Shown piece after piece: positions 5,403 to 13,450 of a stretch of 64,000 bases of DNA. Origin of the DNA: Actinomycetota bacterium (GTDB taxonomy: Bacteria > Actinomycetota > Geothermincolia > Geothermincolales > RBG-13-55-18); NCBI GenBank assembly GCA_013178005.1, contig JABLXL010000006.1:1-64000 (forward strand). Direction: 5' to 3'. The notes beneath the pieces are model-generated. The model was given only the letters and a program-made list of their open reading frames with translations, ran no database searches and was not told the origin of the DNA. Positions within the stretch are counted from its first letter, which is position 1. Every line of letters starts with the position of its first letter. A program made the translations under genes and the position numbers.

Positions 5403-6719
5403 ATGAAAGGCGAGAGGAAGAGCATCAACTTAGGCCTGATCGGTTGCGGAACGGTGGGCTCCGGCGTTTACCGCATTCTCAGGGACAACGCGGAGGCGAT
5501 ATCCCTTCGCACGGGATGTGACATCAAAGTGAGACGCGTGGCGGTCAGGGACCTCTCCGATCCCCGTTACGTGGATGTCCCCGAGGGAGAGCTGACCACG
5601 GATGCCCTGCAGGTCATCCACGACCCGGAAGTCGATATCGTGGTCGAGGTAATCGGCGGCGTGGAACCGGCGAGGACCTTCATCCTGGAGTCGATCTCCA
5701 GGGGCAAGCACGTGGTCTCCGCCAACAAAGAGCTCTTAAGCACGCACGGCGGCGAGATCCTGCGTGCCGCCGAAGAGGCGGGAGTGGACGTGGCCTACGA
5801 GGCCAGCGTGGGCGGGGCCATCCCCATACTCCTGCCCCTGAAATACAGCCTGGCCGGAAACGCCGTGGACAGCATCCTGGGAATCGTGAACGGCACCACC
5901 AATTACGTCCTCACGCGCATGAGCGAGGAGGGGCTGTCCTTCTCGGAGGCATTGAGCAAGGCGCAGGAGCGGGGTTACGCGGAGGCCGACCCCAGCGCCG
6001 ACGTGGAGGGGAAGGACGCGGCGGCCAAGCTGGCCATACTCGCCTCCATGGCCTTCAACTCCCGCGTTACCCTTGATGACGTGTACACCGAGGGCATCGC
6101 CGGGATAACCCCTGACGACATCAGGTTCGGGAGGGACCTCGGGTACGTCATCAAGCTTCTGGCGGTGGCCAAGGACGACCCCGACGGCATCAGCGTACGC
6201 GTCCATCCCACCATGATCCCGGTGGACCATCCCCTGGCGGCGGTGAGGGACGAGAACAACGCCATCTTCGTGTCAGGGGACGCGGCGGGGGAGCTGATGT
6301 TCTACGGCAAGGGAGCGGGCTCCCTGCCGGCGGCAAGCGCGGTGGTGGGGGACATAATCACCATCGCCCGCAACCTGCTTTCGGGCGGGCGCATGGCGGG
6401 GTGCACCTGTTTCTACCGCAAGCCCGTGAAGGACATGGCCGACGTCATTTGCCGCTACTTCATGCTCTTCGATGCGCCCGACCGGCCGGGGGTGCTGGCC
6501 AGGATAGCGGGGGTGTTCGGGGATAACGGGGTAAGCATTAAGTCGGTCATCCAACATGGCACGGGGAGCGAAGCGCGCATCGTGCTGGTCACGCACGCGG
6601 TGCCGGAGAGGAGCATCCGCTCCACGGTCAGGGGTCTGGAGGAACTGGGCGCGGTCAACCGCATCGCCAGCGTCATCAGGGTGGAGGACCGGGATGGGGA
6701 AGGATGCCGCGAGGGTTGA
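5403..6719 (+). CDS. hom: Homoserine dehydrogenase
   Basis: A 438-residue NAD(P)-dependent dehydrogenase that reduces aspartate semialdehyde to homoserine. The Rossmann signature GLIGCGTVGSGV is at the N-terminus, VSANKELLS and the substrate segment GGAIPILLPLK and NGTTNYVLTRM are conserved, and the catalytic-site block YAEADPSADVEGKDAAAKLAI is present. The C-terminal 85 residues form an ACT domain (PDRPGVLARIAGVFGDNGVSI), implying feedback control, probably by threonine. GGAGGCGGAGGAGAG precedes the ATG. A TAGAAT -10-like element at 5280-5285 may serve the operon. thrC follows after 163 bp. Confidence 0.96.
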   Translation: MKGERKSINLGLIGCGTVGSGVYRILRDNAEAISLRTGCDIKVRRVAVRDLSDPRYVDVPEGELTTDALQVIHDPEVDIVVEVIGGVEPARTFILESISRGKHVVSANKELLSTHGGEILRAAEEAGVDVAYEASVGGAIPILLPLKYSLAGNAVDSILGIVNGTTNYVLTRMSEEGLSFSEALSKAQERGYAEADPSADVEGKDAAAKLAILASMAFNSRVTLDDVYTEGIAGITPDDIRFGRDLGYVIKLLAVAKDDPDGISVRVHPTMIPVDHPLAAVRDENNAIFVSGDAAGELMFYGKGAGSLPAASAVVGDIITIARNLLSGGRMAGCTCFYRKPVKDMADVICRYFMLFDAPDRPGVLARIAGVFGDNGVSIKSVIQHGTGSEARIVLVTHAVPERSIRSTVRGLEELGAVNRIASVIRVEDRDGEGCREG

Positions 6720-6882: not shown

Positions 6883-7938
6883 TTGGTAACGGAATGGCGG
6901 GGGATAATCGAGGCCTTCAGGGAGTTCCTCCCCGTGGGAGAGGGCACGCCCGTGGTTACCTTGAGGGAGGGGAACACCCCCCTGGTGGAGGCCGCTTACA
7001 TCAGCAGGCAGCTCGGGGTCGAGGTGCTTCTCAAGTGCGAGGGCATGAACCCCACGGGTTCCTTCAAGGACCGCGGCATGACGGTGGCGGTGAGCAAGGC
7101 CGTGGAGGAAGGGGCCAGGACGGTGATCTGCGCCTCCACCGGGAACACCAGCGCCTCGGCGGCGGCCTACGCGGCGCGGGCGGGCATCGGTTGCGCCGTG
7201 CTCATCCCGGGAGGAGCCATAGCCCTGGGCAAGCTCGCCCAGGCTCTCGTGCACGGAGCCACGGTGATCGCGGTGAAGGGAAACTTCGACCAGGCTTTGA
7301 AGTTGGTGAGGGAGATAAGTGAGGAGTACCCGGTGGTCCTGGTCAATTCACTGAATCCCCACCGTATAGAGGGACAGAAAACGGGGGCTTTCGAGATATG
7401 CGACGCGCTGGGGCGCGCACCAGATTACCATTTTATACCAGTTGGCAACGCGGGCAATATTACCGCTTACTGGAAGGGGTATAGGGAATATCTGGAGGCG
7501 GGACGGATCGGCTCCCTTCCGCGCATGATGGGCTGGCAGGCAGAAGGCGCCGCCCCCATCGTCAGGGGGCGGGTGGTCGAAGATCCCCGCACCGTGGCCA
7601 CGGCGATCAGGATCGGAAACCCCGCGAGCTGGGATCGCGCGGTTGCCGCGGCGAGGGAGTCGATGGGGAAAATCGACATGGTTTCCGACGAAGAGATCTT
7701 AGATGCCTACAGGCTTCTAGCGGACCGGGAAGGGGTGTTCGTTGAACCGGCCTCGGCCGCCTCGGTGGCCGGACTTTACAAGGCATGCGCGCGCGGCGAG
7801 ATCCCGGCAGGCTCCACGGTGGTGTGCGTGCTCACCGGGCATGGGCTCAAGGACCCGGGGCTGGCCGTGGAATGCGTGCGCGAACCGCTGGCGGTTCCTC
7901 CCCGAAAGGAGGAGATACTGGAGATACTGGGACTGTAG
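6883..7938 (+). CDS. thrC: Threonine synthase
   Basis: A 351-residue PLP enzyme of fold type II that converts O-phosphohomoserine to threonine. The PLP lysine is in GSFKDRGM, followed by [19 protein letters not shown] for phosphate binding, [13 protein letters not shown] for cofactor phosphate, and a C-terminal [11 protein letters not shown]. The short length is typical of the bacterial/archaeal compact ThrC class. The start is a TTG placed 5 nt after a strong GGAGGAGGTAGG site. It sits between hom and the ApgM-like gene, with no classical GHMP-type thrB nearby. Confidence 0.95.
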
Positions 7939-7963: not shown

Positions 7964-9184
7964 ATGAAATACGTGGTCCTGGTGCCTGACGGGGCGGCGG
8001 ACAGGCCGCTGGAAGGACATGGAGGGCTGACGCCGCTGGAGGCGGCCCGCACTCCCAACATGGATTTTATTGCCAGGGAGGGGATATGCGGGACGGCGGT
8101 CACCGTGCCGGAGGGCATGCCGGCGGGGAGCGACGTGGCCAATTATTCCCTCCTGGGTTACGACCCGCGCGAGTTCTACAGCGGCAGGGGTCCCCTGGAG
8201 GCCGCGAGCATGGGCATCGAGCTGGAGCCCGAACAGGTGGCGTTCCGTTGCAACCTGGTGACCGAGAAAGAGGACGTGCTCGCTGACTACAGCGCCGGCC
8301 ACATCACCACCCCGGAGGCGCGCGAACTCATACACGCGTTGAGCGAACGCCTTGACGACGCGTTCACCGCCTTCCACCCGGGCGTCGGCTACCGCCACCT
8401 CCTGGTGCTGAAGGGGTTGAAGCACCTGGAGGACCGCTGTCACCCTCCCCACGACGTGGTCGGGAGGGAGATAGAGGGCATCCTGCCCGAGGGTCCCGGT
8501 GCGTCAAGGCTTAACGCCCTCATGCGTCTCTCCAGGCGCATTCTATCGGAGCATCCCGTGAACAAGCGGCGAGAGGCGCAAGGCCTCCCGGCCGCCAACC
8601 TCATCTGGCCCTGGGGCCAGGGGAGGACACCCAGCCTACCCACCTTCCAGGAGAAATACGGTCTGAGGGGAGCTATCATCACCGCCGTAGATCTCCTGAA
8701 GGGGCTGGGAAAACTGGCGGGGCTCGAGGTGGTGGACGTCCCCGGCGCCACGGGATATTACGACACCGATTACGCGGCCAAGGCGGCCTACGCCAGGGAG
8801 TGTCTGCGCCGCCTGGACCTGGTTTACATACACGTGGAAGCGCCGGATGAGGCGGGCCATGAGGGGAACTGGCAGGAAAAGGTAACCGCCATCGAGCGGG
8901 TGGACGAGCTCATCCTGGGCTCGCTGCTGGACGAGACGGTTCGCTCGGGAGAGGAGTTCGCCTTTCTGCTCGCCCCCGACCATCCCACGCCCCTAGAGGT
9001 GAGGACCCACGTGCCTGACCCCGTGCCCTTCGCTATCTATTTTCCACAGGCGGTGCCGGATAAGTGTAAGGCTTTCAACGAGAAAGCGGTGAGGGAGGGA
9101 TCCTTCCAAGGGCACGCAGGGTGGAAGTTAATGGAACAACTCATGGGTAAGGCAGGGGGGATACGGGCGGGCTCCAGCATGTGA
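7964..9184 (+). CDS. ApgM-family phosphoglycerate mutase, candidate homoserine kinase
   Basis: About 406 residues, alkaline-phosphatase superfamily, archaeal-type cofactor-independent phosphoglycerate mutase family. Seen: VVLVPDGAADRP with the metal/nucleophile region, TPNMDFIAREG, SDVANYSLLGYDP with the catalytic serine position, HVEAPDEAGHEG and LAPDHPTP metal ligands. The family contains true 2,3-BPG-independent mutases and also, as I recall, members shown genetically to supply homoserine kinase activity. Its place directly after hom-thrC supports homoserine kinase; its place near 2-phosphoglycerate-using genes supports mutase. The track begins in an upstream frame at 7742; the ATG at 7964 after AAAAGGGGG is the real start. 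Confidence 0.88.
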   Translation: MKYVVLVPDGAADRPLEGHGGLTPLEAARTPNMDFIAREGICGTAVTVPEGMPAGSDVANYSLLGYDPREFYSGRGPLEAASMGIELEPEQVAFRCNLVTEKEDVLADYSAGHITTPEARELIHALSERLDDAFTAFHPGVGYRHLLVLKGLKHLEDRCHPPHDVVGREIEGILPEGPGASRLNALMRLSRRILSEHPVNKRREAQGLPAANLIWPWGQGRTPSLPTFQEKYGLRGAIITAVDLLKGLGKLAGLEVVDVPGATGYYDTDYAAKAAYARECLRRLDLVYIHVEAPDEAGHEGNWQEKVTAIERVDELILGSLLDETVRSGEEFAFLLAPDHPTPLEVRTHVPDPVPFAIYFPQAVPDKCKAFNEKAVREGSFQGHAGWKLMEQLMGKAGGIRAGSSM

Positions 9185-9280: not shown

Positions 9281-10102
9281 ATGCCTGCGAGGATATTTCC
9301 CGTCAGCAAGTCGCCTGTGGTTATCGCCCATGTCTCCGATTTCCATATCGGCTCCTACCACTTCGTGGCGAACCTCATGAACCGCTGCATCCTCGAGCTC
9401 AACGAGCTGGAGCCGGACATCGTGGTGGTGACGGGCGACCTGACTAACGAAGGTTTCCGACAGGAGTACCTCACCGCGAAGTCCTACCTGGACGGGCTGG
9501 AGTGCGAGCGGGTGATGGTCATCCCCGGTAATCACGATTCGCGCAACGTGGGTTATTTACACTTCCAGGAGCTTTTCGGCCCCCTGTTCCAGAACCTGGA
9601 ATGGGCTGGAGTTTACATCATGGGAGTCGATTCCAGCGAGCCGGACCTGGATTCGGGACAGATAGGGCGTGAGAAATACGCGAGGATCGTGGAATATTTC
9701 CACGGGGTAGAGGGCTTCAAGGTCTTCGCGCTTCACCACCACCTCCTCCCCGTGCCGGGAACGGGAAGGGAAAGGAACATCGTATTCGACGCGGGAGACG
9801 TGTTGGAGCTCCTGGTGTACGCGGGCGTTGACCTGGTCCTTACGGGGCACAAGCACGTGCCCTACGTGTGGAAGCTGGAGGACCTATACGTTGTTAACGC
9901 TGGCACCATATCCTCATTGCGCCTGCGGGGGAATACCAAGCCCTGCTACAACGTGATAGAGATCAGGGAAGACCTGGTGAGGATCTTCCGGAAGTATCCC
10001 TTTGGGGGGCGCGACGTGATCGCGCAGTTCGGGGTGGGGGTGAACGACACGCAGAAGGGGCTTTCGGGGGTGGTGAGGGAGATCATCGGCTCCGATCTTT
10101 AG
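9281..10102 (+). CDS. Calcineurin-like metallophosphoesterase
   Basis: About 273 residues with all metallophosphoesterase motifs in order: DFHIG, GDLTNEG, GNHDS, ALHHHLLP and GHKHVP. It is closest in layout to the class III cyclic-nucleotide phosphodiesterase/Icc-like group of dinuclear-metal enzymes, but substrate is unknown. No signal peptide is evident, so it is probably cytoplasmic. I chose the ATG at 9281 over the track's GTG at 9254 because it follows GGAGCGGAAAGAG and starts close to the first conserved strand. It continues the plus-strand operon between the ApgM-like and cDPG genes. Confidence 0.88.
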   Translation: MPARIFPVSKSPVVIAHVSDFHIGSYHFVANLMNRCILELNELEPDIVVVTGDLTNEGFRQEYLTAKSYLDGLECERVMVIPGNHDSRNVGYLHFQELFGPLFQNLEWAGVYIMGVDSSEPDLDSGQIGREKYARIVEYFHGVEGFKVFALHHHLLPVPGTGRERNIVFDAGDVLELLVYAGVDLVLTGHKHVPYVWKLEDLYVVNAGTISSLRLRGNTKPCYNVIEIREDLVRIFRKYPFGGRDVIAQFGVGVNDTQKGLSGVVREIIGSDL

Positions 10103-10483: not shown

Positions 10484-11857
10484 ATGTCGGAGAAGCGGCG
10501 TGCCGTCTTTCTGGTGGATGGAGAGCACCACCCCGATACCGTGCGCGGGGCGGTACGCGCCCTGGCGGAGAGGGAAAACCTGGAACCGCTTGCCCTGTAT
10601 TTCCTGGGAGGCGCAGAGAAGCTCGGCGACGCCTCGGAGTTATCGGTGGAGGGATGCGCGCTGGTGGTGCCAGGGGATCCTATTGGCGATTTCGCAAACA
10701 CGCTCGAGCGTTATTCTCCCCATGTGGTCCTGGACTTGAGCGACCTTCCCGTGCTCGGCCCGGCGATGCGCATGAGGATGGCCGCGACGGCCTTGGCGCG
10801 GGGAGTCGCCTACCTGGGGGCGGACTTCGAATTCAGGCCGCCGCGCCGCGAGCGCGTCCTAACCAAGCCCTCCTGCGCGGTGATCGGAACCGGCAAACGG
10901 TGTGGGAAGACGGCGGTGTCGGCGGAGATGGCGCGTTACCTGGCGCGCACGGGAAGGGAGCCGGTGGTGGTGGCCATGGGGAGGGGCGGGCCGCCAAGGC
11001 CGTACGTGGTGGAGGAGCGGGTGGTGGACGAGGAATACCTCCAGGGTGAGCTGGGTAAGGGATTGCACGCCGCGTCCGACCACTACGAAGACGCCATGGT
11101 TTCCGGAGTGGTGACCGTGGGATCACGCCGCTGCGGGGGAGGGATGGCGGGAGAGCCTTTCGTCACCAACTGTGCGGAGGCGGCGGCGGTGGCGGAAAGC
11201 CTGCCGGGCCGGGTGGTTATAGTGGAGGGCAGCGGATCGAGCGTGCCGCCGGTGCTCACCGATACGTCGGTGTTGGTCGTGAGCGCGGCGCAGGACCTCG
11301 AGGAAGCCCTGGGATACCTGGGCGCGTACAGGCTCTTGATTTCCGACGGGGTTATCATTACAATGGCTGAAGAGCCTTTCGCGTCTTCCCGAAGAATCCA
11401 GGAACTCCGCGAAAGGATAGAGTGGATAAGTGGCGATGTCGTTGTCCTAAACACGATTTTCAGGCCTCATCCCTTGAAACCCATCCGTGGCAGGAAGGTT
11501 TTTCTGGTTGCGACCGCGCCCCCTGAGGCAAGGGAACTGCTGGAAAAACACCTGCGTGAAAAGGAAGGTTGCGAGGTGTTGGGGAGCAGTTTCAACCTCT
11601 CGCGGCGAGACCGGCTCGTGAGCGACCTCGGGGGCGCGGACGAAGCGGAGGTGGTGCTCACCGAGCTCAAGGCGGCCGCGGTGGACGTGGTGGCGCGATA
11701 CGCGCGGCGACGCGGCAAGGAGTTGGTTTTCTTCCATAACGTTCCGGTCCCCGCCGGGGGGGATATGGACCTGGAGAGGTTTTTTGAAACCATGTGGGCG
11801 AAAGCCACGGAGAGATCATGCCGGCAGAAGAAGACAAGAAAAGAAAAGACAGGATAA
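10484..11857 (+). CDS. cpgS: Cyclic 2,3-diphosphoglycerate synthetase
   Basis: A 457-residue protein matching the cyclic 2,3-diphosphoglycerate synthetase family described from thermophilic methanogens, which closes 2,3-diphosphoglycerate to the cyclic trianhydride-like solute using ATP. Seen: an N-terminal domain beginning RRAVFLVDGEHHPD, then a P-loop-type segment IGTGKRCGKTAVSAEMARYLA and MGRGGPPRPYVVE, followed by an acidic EGSGSSVPPVLTD. Length matches the archaeal enzyme. ATG 10484 follows AAAGGAG with good spacing; the track's 10376 start is an artefact. The stop overlaps the next gene by 40 nt, so the two are translationally coupled. Confidence 0.85.
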   Translation: MSEKRRAVFLVDGEHHPDTVRGAVRALAERENLEPLALYFLGGAEKLGDASELSVEGCALVVPGDPIGDFANTLERYSPHVVLDLSDLPVLGPAMRMRMAATALARGVAYLGADFEFRPPRRERVLTKPSCAVIGTGKRCGKTAVSAEMARYLARTGREPVVVAMGRGGPPRPYVVEERVVDEEYLQGELGKGLHAASDHYEDAMVSGVVTVGSRRCGGGMAGEPFVTNCAEAAAVAESLPGRVVIVEGSGSSVPPVLTDTSVLVVSAAQDLEEALGYLGAYRLLISDGVIITMAEEPFASSRRIQELRERIEWISGDVVVLNTIFRPHPLKPIRGRKVFLVATAPPEARELLEKHLREKEGCEVLGSSFNLSRRDRLVSDLGGADEAEVVLTELKAAAVDVVARYARRRGKELVFFHNVPVPAGGDMDLERFFETMWAKATERSCRQKKTRKEKTG

Positions 11858-12780
11858 CCATCCTGGACGAGGAGCGCCACAGGGTACCCTTCTCGAAAGG
11901 CCTGACGGCCAACGCCATTATGGCCTCCGGGCTGGCGCCAGGCAGGGCTTACGCCGTGGCCTCGGACATAGAGGAGCACTTGATCAGGGAGGGCAGGCTG
12001 GAGATTAAGGCGGGTGAGCTGCGCAAGCTCATCTACGGTTTCCTCAACGAACGTGTGGGGGAGCACTACGCCGCCAACTACTGGCGCTACATCTCCTTCA
12101 GCAGCCTGAACAAGCCTCTGGTTATCCTCATCGGCGGATCGACCGGGGTGGGAAAATCTACCATAGCGACCATGCTCGCCAACAGGTTGAGCATCGTGCG
12201 CATCGTGTCCACCGACGCTATACGCGAGGTCATGCGCGCGTTCTTCTCCCGCGAGCTCATGCCCACCATACACACCTCCTCCTTCGACGCTGACACCGCC
12301 CTCATTCACCCTCTGCCGCCGCACGTGGACCCGGTGGTGGCGGGATTCCGGGAACAGAGCCTTTCGGTGCTGGTAGGGGTGAGGGCGATAATCAACCGTG
12401 CCTTGAAGGAGGGCACGCATATCATCATCGAGGGGGCGCACATCGTGCCCGGTTTCATCGCGCCGCAGCAGTTCCCGGACGCCTATATAGTCCCCCTCCT
12501 GGTTAAGGTGAGCGACGAGAAGATGCACCGCAGCCACTTCTATATACGCGAGGTCGAGACGCAGGGAACGCGTCCTTTCCAGCGCTACCTCGAGTACTTC
12601 GAGAACATACGCAAGATCCAGGACTACATCGTGCACCTGGGAAACGTGACCGGCACCAAGGCCATAGAGAGCGTGAACCTGGACACGGCGGTTACCGAGA
12701 TCGTGGATTACGTCATCAACACCGCTTACGAGATGGCCAGGAAGGACATGACCGCAGCGAAAGTGGAGCACCTGGTCTGA
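11818..12780 (+). CDS. pgk2: 2-phosphoglycerate kinase
   Basis: A 320-residue protein: an N-terminal ATP-cone-like domain (residues about 10-85) followed by a P-loop kinase domain with IGGSTGVGKSTIATMLANRL, the STDAIREVMR substrate segment and IIEGAHIVPGF. This arrangement is that of 2-phosphoglycerate kinase, which makes 2,3-diphosphoglycerate, the substrate for the upstream cDPG synthetase. The overlap with that gene and the shared pathway argue strongly for a two-enzyme cDPG module. The start ATG at 11818 follows GGAGAG; the track's GTG at 11794 is less likely. Confidence 0.87.
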   Translation: MPAEEDKKRKDRITILDEERHRVPFSKGLTANAIMASGLAPGRAYAVASDIEEHLIREGRLEIKAGELRKLIYGFLNERVGEHYAANYWRYISFSSLNKPLVILIGGSTGVGKSTIATMLANRLSIVRIVSTDAIREVMRAFFSRELMPTIHTSSFDADTALIHPLPPHVDPVVAGFREQSLSVLVGVRAIINRALKEGTHIIIEGAHIVPGFIAPQQFPDAYIVPLLVKVSDEKMHRSHFYIREVETQGTRPFQRYLEYFENIRKIQDYIVHLGNVTGTKAIESVNLDTAVTEIVDYVINTAYEMARKDMTAAKVEHLV

Positions 12781-12802
12781 GAGCGTGCGACGGAGGTAGG
12801 AG

Positions 12803-13450
12803 ATGAAGCTTTTCCTGGACACGGCAAATGTGGACCACATCAGGGAAATCAATGCATGGGGCATACTCGCCGGGGTCACCACCAATCCATCCCTCGTCTC
12901 CAAGGAAGGGAGGAGCATGCGGGAATGCCTGGAGGAGATAGCGGGCATCGTCTCCGGCCCCATCAGCGCCGAAGCGGTGAGCATGGACACGGAAGGCATG
13001 TTGCGGGAAGCGAGGGAGCTCGCGGCCATAGCCGATAACATAAACGTCAAAATCCCCATGACCCCGGAGGGACTGGCGGCGGTAAGCGTTCTTGCGCGGG
13101 AGGGGATAAAGACCAACGTGACCCTGGTCTTTTCCGCCAACCAGGCATTGTTGGCGGCGGCGGCGGGGGCCACTTTCGTGAGTCCCTTCGTGGGAAGGAT
13201 GGATGATATTGGAAACAGTGGGATGAAGGTGGTGGAGGAGATCGTGGACATCTTCGACACCCATTCCATCCCCACCCAGGTGATCGCCGCCAGCCTGCGC
13301 CATCCCATGCACGTTACGGAGGCGGCGCTGGCGGGCGCGCACATCGCGACCATCCCGTACGAGGTCATGGTGAAGATGGCGCACCATCCCCTGACCGATA
13401 TCGGGATAAGGAGATTTCTGGAGGATTATGAAAAAATCAAGGACCTATAG
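12803..13450 (+). CDS. Transaldolase / fructose-6-phosphate aldolase family
   Basis: A 215-residue class I aldolase of the short transaldolase/FSA family. Landmarks are [22 protein letters not shown], the Schiff-base lysine in [27 protein letters not shown] and [11 protein letters not shown]. Short members include both transaldolases of the pentose phosphate route and fructose-6-phosphate aldolases; sequence by eye does not separate them. With the HPS fusion gene in the window, a role in non-oxidative pentose phosphate supply is likely. The gene overlaps the leader of rho and has a GGAGG-type site at 12790-12794. Confidence 0.93.

Follow-up and report, generated by a model that had tools for sequence, protein, structure and literature searches.

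Cyclic 2,3-diphosphoglycerate (cDPG) has been explained as a thermoprotectant, as an osmolyte, and as a store of phosphate, carbon and energy. Both the compound and its synthetase (cDPGS) were described in 2023-2025 as confined to hyperthermophilic methanogens (PMC10690619, PMC12136491). The gut mesophile Methanobrevibacter smithii accumulates cDPG, and in Methanothermobacter, for which hydrolysis of cDPG and a use as a store have been described, the compound turns over fast and its level barely follows salt (PMC1224877). The residues that hold 2,3-diphosphoglycerate (2,3-DPG), ADP or ATP, and Mg are named in the structure paper on M. fervidus cDPGS (PMC10690619). Genes for cDPGS have already been noted in ammonia-oxidising archaea. 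Our literature search, with most subscription journals and all bioRxiv preprints outside its reach, found no report of a cDPG pathway in Actinomycetota.

The window (the whole stretch of 64,000 nucleotides analysed here, from an actinomycetotal assembly of 3.6 Mb) carries a cDPGS gene on the plus strand at 10484-11857. Its frame runs from an ATG at 10484 to a stop codon at 11855-11857, encodes 457 aa, and is preceded by AAAGGAG, a good ribosome-binding site. In a phmmer search of the PDB the protein matches 8ork/8oru, the M. fervidus cDPGS, at E=1e-98, and residues 2-424 align with residues 1-433 of 8ork, so that homology is full-length and includes the N-terminal domain unique to the family. 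Profile searches gave zero Pfam and zero NCBIfam matches for the window protein, and M. fervidus cDPGS likewise has no match in Pfam. Neither database has a model that recognises cDPGS, which is probably why the bacterial pathway was overlooked. A 633-aa minus-strand open reading frame (11467-13368) lying over cDPGS and its downstream neighbor is an unsupported shadow frame.

Loss of active-site residues relative to the characterised archaeal enzymes had been named beforehand as one outcome that would refute cDPG synthesis by this organism; in the synthetase, the residues that we could map are all kept. M. fervidus E45, K46, K145, R146 and K149 correspond to E45, K46, K138, R139 and K142 in the window protein, and T150, D208, E305, E404 and K406 to T143, D199, E296, E394 and K396. 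This set leaves out P335 and T353, whose positions are uncertain. All ten residues are invariant in an alignment of 23 cDPGS sequences from bacteria, methanogens, one haloarchaeon and one Thermoplasmata archaeon; in a 16-sequence set that includes the solved proteins, E296 alone among the mapped residues falls short of strict invariance. A second solved cDPGS of 436 aa (PDB 9sxb) lacks the near-invariant glutamate at the E296 position. An AlphaFold2 model of the window protein, built from relatives (pLDDT 92.7), superposes on the substrate-bound crystal structure 8oru with a TM-score of 0.92 at 40% identity. The window protein is thus a member of the cDPGS family with an intact active site and, as modeled, the cDPGS fold.

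Directly downstream, on the same strand, lies a gene for a putative 2-phosphoglycerate kinase (2PGK; 11818-12780) with an ATP-cone followed by a P-loop kinase domain. It starts at an ATG at 11818 with GGAG shortly upstream, ends with its stop at 12780, and encodes 320 aa (328 aa if translation begins at a GTG at 11794). From 11818 to 11857 the two genes overlap by exactly 40 nt (64 nt from the alternative GTG), which suggests translational coupling. Frames, ribosome-binding sites, and phmmer and NCBIfam matches confirm both genes and the 40-nt overlap as given in the first-pass annotation. The ATP-cone scores 27.7 bits in Pfam. Against the NCBIfam 2-phosphoglycerate kinase model PRK04220 the protein reaches E=4e-91 and 306 bits, short of the curated cut-off of 343, and its 311 bits against PRK12337 are also under the cut-off for that model. 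Archaeal 2PGKs coupled to cDPGS (loci L069, L085 and L100) miss the PRK04220 cut-off as well, and the threshold therefore leaves out a whole coupled subgroup. The Walker A motif reads GGSTGVGKST; in an alignment, Methanobrevibacter and Rubrobacter 2PGKs read GVGTS, with T where the window protein has K. Based on its domain architecture, the invariant residues it has in common with the family, and its linkage to and co-occurrence with cDPGS, we treat the downstream protein as a predicted 2PGK. Four Methanobrevibacter genomes (G303-G306; L114, L115, L116) contain a second 2PGK-like sequence, partial or stop-containing, beside the full-length copy.

To the coupling of the two genes in a bacterium, already pointed out for this locus, we can add that they lie side by side across many genera and other phyla, far beyond chance. 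Among 297 evenly drawn Actinomycetota genomes, cDPGS and 2PGK each occur in 163, both together in 160 (about 54%), and neither in 131, so that of the 166 genomes in which at least one of the two is present, 160 carry both; because the genomes are linked by descent and do not count as independent samples, the tiny Fisher p-value of this co-occurrence is not meaningful as such. These numbers do not support the initial view that the pathway is unusual for bacteria. The mismatches are few, stem partly from incomplete assemblies, and include three genomes with 2PGK and no cDPGS. Of the 57 Actinomycetota loci that extend far enough downstream, 42 have 2PGK directly after cDPGS, and most of the exceptions are Rubrobacteraceae. 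In Rubrobacteraceae loci L117, L118 and L119, cDPGS remains together with the metallophosphoesterase discussed below and 2PGK is encoded at another site. This separate kinase scores above the NCBIfam cut-off for the methanogen type, and its Walker A motif contains GVGTS, not GVGKS, suggesting that the operon kinase was replaced by another 2PGK.

When each species was represented by a single genome, at least 396 cDPGS-encoding stretches were confirmed. Named bacterial carriers include Rubrobacter, Aquicultor, Coriobacteriia, Acidimicrobiia-type and Thermoleophilia MAGs, Aminicenantes, Poribacteria, Mcinerneyibacterium, Neomarinimicrobiota and a Bacillota MAG; named archaeal carriers include Methanobrevibacter, Thermoplasmata and haloarchaea. 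A record from a lone MAG may include contaminant contigs, whereas many genomes underlie the Actinomycetota result. Few Aminicenantes have the gene: among 119 sampled genomes the query genome alone gives a full-strength match, and the rest reach about 30 bits or less. The coupled pair itself also occurs in Thermoplasmata, haloarchaea, Methanolliviera, Aminicenantes, Mcinerneyibacterium and Poribacteria. A check by phylogeny for recent transfer from archaea had been proposed, and quick trees of cDPGS and 2PGK (with the root between the domains left unplaced) give no sign of such an import: both window proteins nest among Geothermincolaceae and other Actinomycetota, with SH-aLRT of at least 97 for the nearest well-supported groups. 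The pair is inherited within Actinomycetota.

As we picture the pathway, 2PGK would phosphorylate 2-phosphoglycerate with ATP to 2,3-DPG, and cDPGS would then transfer a second phosphate from ATP onto 2,3-DPG and close the ring with release of phosphate. We consider it likely that the locus encodes this complete two-step synthesis and that its host makes cDPG, with enzyme activities and accumulation predicted from the genes. The searchable literature holds no report of cDPG in carrier bacteria that we could find. Solute studies of Rubrobacter xylanophilus and one further Rubrobacter species report other compounds and not cDPG, which counts against accumulation; one of these studies is a targeted chromatographic assay, and neither species was identified by name among the carriers, while other Rubrobacter genomes carry cDPGS.

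The gene upstream at 7964-9184 (plus strand) encodes an ApgM-like protein that had been suggested as the source of 2-phosphoglycerate. We reject that role based on model scores and gene context. The protein passes PRK04200 (543 bits, cut-off 426) and TIGR02535, ‘proposed homoserine kinase’ (532 bits, cut-off 446), and misses the cut-offs of the phosphoglycerate mutase models PRK04024 and PRK04135. It follows hom (5403-6719) and thrC (6883-7938), and a profile search of the host genome found no ThrB over its cut-off. Another host protein, G000:C6, passes the PRK04135 mutase cut-off. The neighbor is better read as a predicted homoserine kinase of threonine synthesis, outside the cDPG pathway; mutase activity is possible, PRK04200 itself being named phosphoglycerate mutase. 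A third ApgM-like protein of the host (G000:C40:7739-8917, L113) best matches the general apgM model and misses every cut-off. In Ca. Solincola sediminis (L034 189-4993), thrC and the ApgM-like gene occur twice in tandem, partly incomplete. In Poribacteria, by contrast, 2PGK-cDPGS is indeed followed by a phosphoglycerate mutase gene whose product scores above the cut-off of PRK04024. Downstream of 2PGK in the window, a fructose-6-phosphate aldolase or transaldolase-like gene (TalC/FSA; 12803-13450, plus strand; TIGR00875, 324 bits) is a syntenic neighbor whose position is kept in many Actinomycetota loci, and we claim no pathway role for it.

Between the ApgM-like gene and cDPGS lies a gene for a calcineurin-like metallophosphoesterase (MPE; 9281-10102, plus strand), identified by Pfam Metallophos and by its fold, which we propose as a candidate cDPG hydrolase or 2,3-DPG phosphatase. 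The enzyme would probably either reopen cDPG or dephosphorylate 2,3-DPG, so that carbon and phosphate re-enter glycolysis or gluconeogenesis. Its metal-site motifs (DxH, GD, GNHD, HHH and GHxH) are invariant in an alignment, and its nearest solved folds are the cyclic-nucleotide phosphodiesterase Rv0805 and the glycerophosphodiesterase GpdQ. PADLOC and NCBIfam defence models match it weakly and partially only, and we discard a reading as a defence system. Of the 57 Actinomycetota loci that extend far enough for it to be seen, 53 have the gene directly upstream of cDPGS. Among 59 relatives, MPE was found in 46 of the 47 genomes with cDPGS, a count in which the match is a paralogue elsewhere in a few genomes (e.g., G031 and G046), and in one of the 12 without; that lone genome is 62% complete and has the gene at a contig end. 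Gene context and fold give about an even chance that MPE is the breakdown enzyme, acting on either cDPG or 2,3-DPG.

The most serious alternative, to which we assign a little under an even chance, is that MPE is unrelated to cDPG and is kept in place by synteny in Actinomycetota. There, MPE belongs to an extended run of genes, reaching as far as rho, whose order is conserved, with hom, thrC and talC as further conserved neighbors, and its adjacency to cDPGS is thus partly synteny. It is also absent beside cDPGS in three Acidimicrobiia-type loci and in genome G032. An invariant GRER motif, tried as a mark specific to the cDPGS-linked proteins, is ruled out in that role, since a paralogue elsewhere in the host genome has it too. 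Against a mere syntenic bystander stand two observations. In Rubrobacter, MPE still adjoins cDPGS although 2PGK has moved away. In Thermoplasmata, Mcinerneyibacterium and Aminicenantes, the operon is ordered differently: cDPGS-2PGK is usually followed by a CBS-domain protein and then by a double metallophosphoesterase, which shares 34-37% identity with the window MPE over its first half and has the window gene as its best match in the host genome. Two haloarchaeal loci (L094 5023-5802 and L100 8239-9018) have a PHP-domain phosphoesterase after cDPGS-2PGK, in the place of MPE. Among the NCBIfam models closest to the L100 protein are one for a nucleoside bisphosphate phosphatase and one for a cyclic phosphate diesterase.

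A second alternative concerns what cDPG is for: the compound could be chiefly a thermoprotective or osmotic solute present in large amounts, the role proposed for it in hyperthermophilic methanogens, and the operon a heat adaptation of a thermophilic host. Species related to the host have names or record titles that refer to hot springs (Ca. Solincola, Ca. Geothermincola), and cDPGS is inferred to have been lost en route to moderate habitats in ammonia-oxidising archaea. The host assembly has no 16S rRNA gene from which a temperature could be estimated; the IVYWREL temperature formula gives about 72 C for the window frames, a crude value with a few false frames in it. We nonetheless consider this account unlikely. 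Among the carriers are Methanobrevibacter from rumen and gut, haloarchaea, and Actinomycetota from groundwater, fen and soil-type settings (habitats as given in record titles), and neither the accumulation in M. smithii nor a Methanothermobacter level that barely tracks salt fits it well (PMC1224877). The pair in Aminicenantes, Poribacteria, haloarchaea, Thermoplasmata and mesophilic Methanobrevibacter makes a purely thermoprotective role doubtful, and the spread over apparently mesophilic carriers suggests that what cDPG does in all of them is storage and turnover, thermoprotection coming second. The thermoprotective role first attached to this locus is possible, yet nothing points to it specifically. 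Under our preferred reading, cDPG would serve mainly as a dynamic reserve of phosphate, carbon and energy and as a protective anion, and thermoprotection would be an added use in hot hosts.

It is improbable that cDPGS and 2PGK mainly make or regulate 2,3-bisphosphoglycerate as a mutase cofactor or signal, with cDPG as a minor or regulatory product. 2PGK homologues without reported cDPGS occur in Deinococcus-Thermus (PMC1274311), and the three sampled Actinomycetota genomes with 2PGK alone point the same way. On the other side, either gene hardly ever occurs without the other in Actinomycetota, the active site for ring closure does not vary, and the apparent host mutase (G000:C6) belongs to the cofactor-independent ApgM type (in a search that left out dPGM). 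Least probable of all is that the bacterial cDPGS, about 40% identical to the only characterised cDPGS and with bacterial members known from sequence, acts on some other bisphosphate or phosphorylated acid related to 2,3-DPG under a misleading annotation, given that all mapped 2,3-DPG- and Mg-contacting residues (PMC10690619) are invariant and that the gene is linked in several phyla to the kinase making 2,3-DPG.

In Thermoplasmata, Mcinerneyibacterium and one Aminicenantes, the operon with cDPGS and 2PGK also encodes a small protein with two CBS domains, and such a protein occurs near the pair in Poribacteria (L069 8236-8667, L072 8242-8673, L076 8242-8673, L096 8246-8674 and L098 8693-9199). 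It could be an adenylate sensor of the cDPG pathway. Tentatively, and with rather more doubt than confidence, we suggest a wider picture in which cDPG is a widespread bacterial phosphate and energy metabolite instead of an archaeal extremolyte, old in Actinomycetota and independent of temperature. It would have a dedicated cycle of synthesis and breakdown, with MPE (in haloarchaea the PHP phosphoesterase) as the missing cDPG hydrolase and, in some lineages, the CBS protein sensing energy state.

If the bacterial genes work, a restriction to hyperthermophilic methanogens is wrong by a wide margin, and about half of the sampled Actinomycetota genomes would have the pathway. The bacterial carriers would then provide many, possibly easier, enzymes for making cDPG, a valued protectant, and a test of whether the compound concerns heat or phosphate and energy storage. 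MPE offers a candidate gene for its breakdown. cDPGS and 2PGK are members of known families, and the proposed link of MPE to the cDPG pathway is new here.

Compared with the described systems, the window cDPGS has in common with M. fervidus cDPGS (8ork, 8oru) the N-terminal dimer and substrate domain, the P-loop domain, the active-site residues and the predicted fold; it differs in being bacterial, 40% identical, encoded beside 2PGK and a metallophosphoesterase, and of predicted activity. The putative 2PGK resembles the methanogen enzyme (PRK04220/COG2074) in its ATP-cone and P-loop kinase domains and in many invariant residues, and departs from that family in its score (306 bits against a cut-off of 343) and in a Walker A motif with GKST, in contrast to GTSS or GTST in Methanobrevibacter and Rubrobacter members. 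The ApgM-like protein corresponds to the ApgM-type ‘proposed homoserine kinase’ (TIGR02535), passing its cut-off and sitting after hom and thrC. MPE has the metallophosphoesterase fold and metal-site motifs in common with Rv0805, a class III cyclic-nucleotide phosphodiesterase, and with GpdQ, whereas its family is about 20% identical to them, carries in addition a GRER/AGD region that is invariant, and lies among different genes. Finally, the membrane-bound cDPG hydrolase of Methanothermobacter thermautotrophicus, known by its activity, would catalyse the breakdown step that we assign to MPE, a likeness of functional analogy only.
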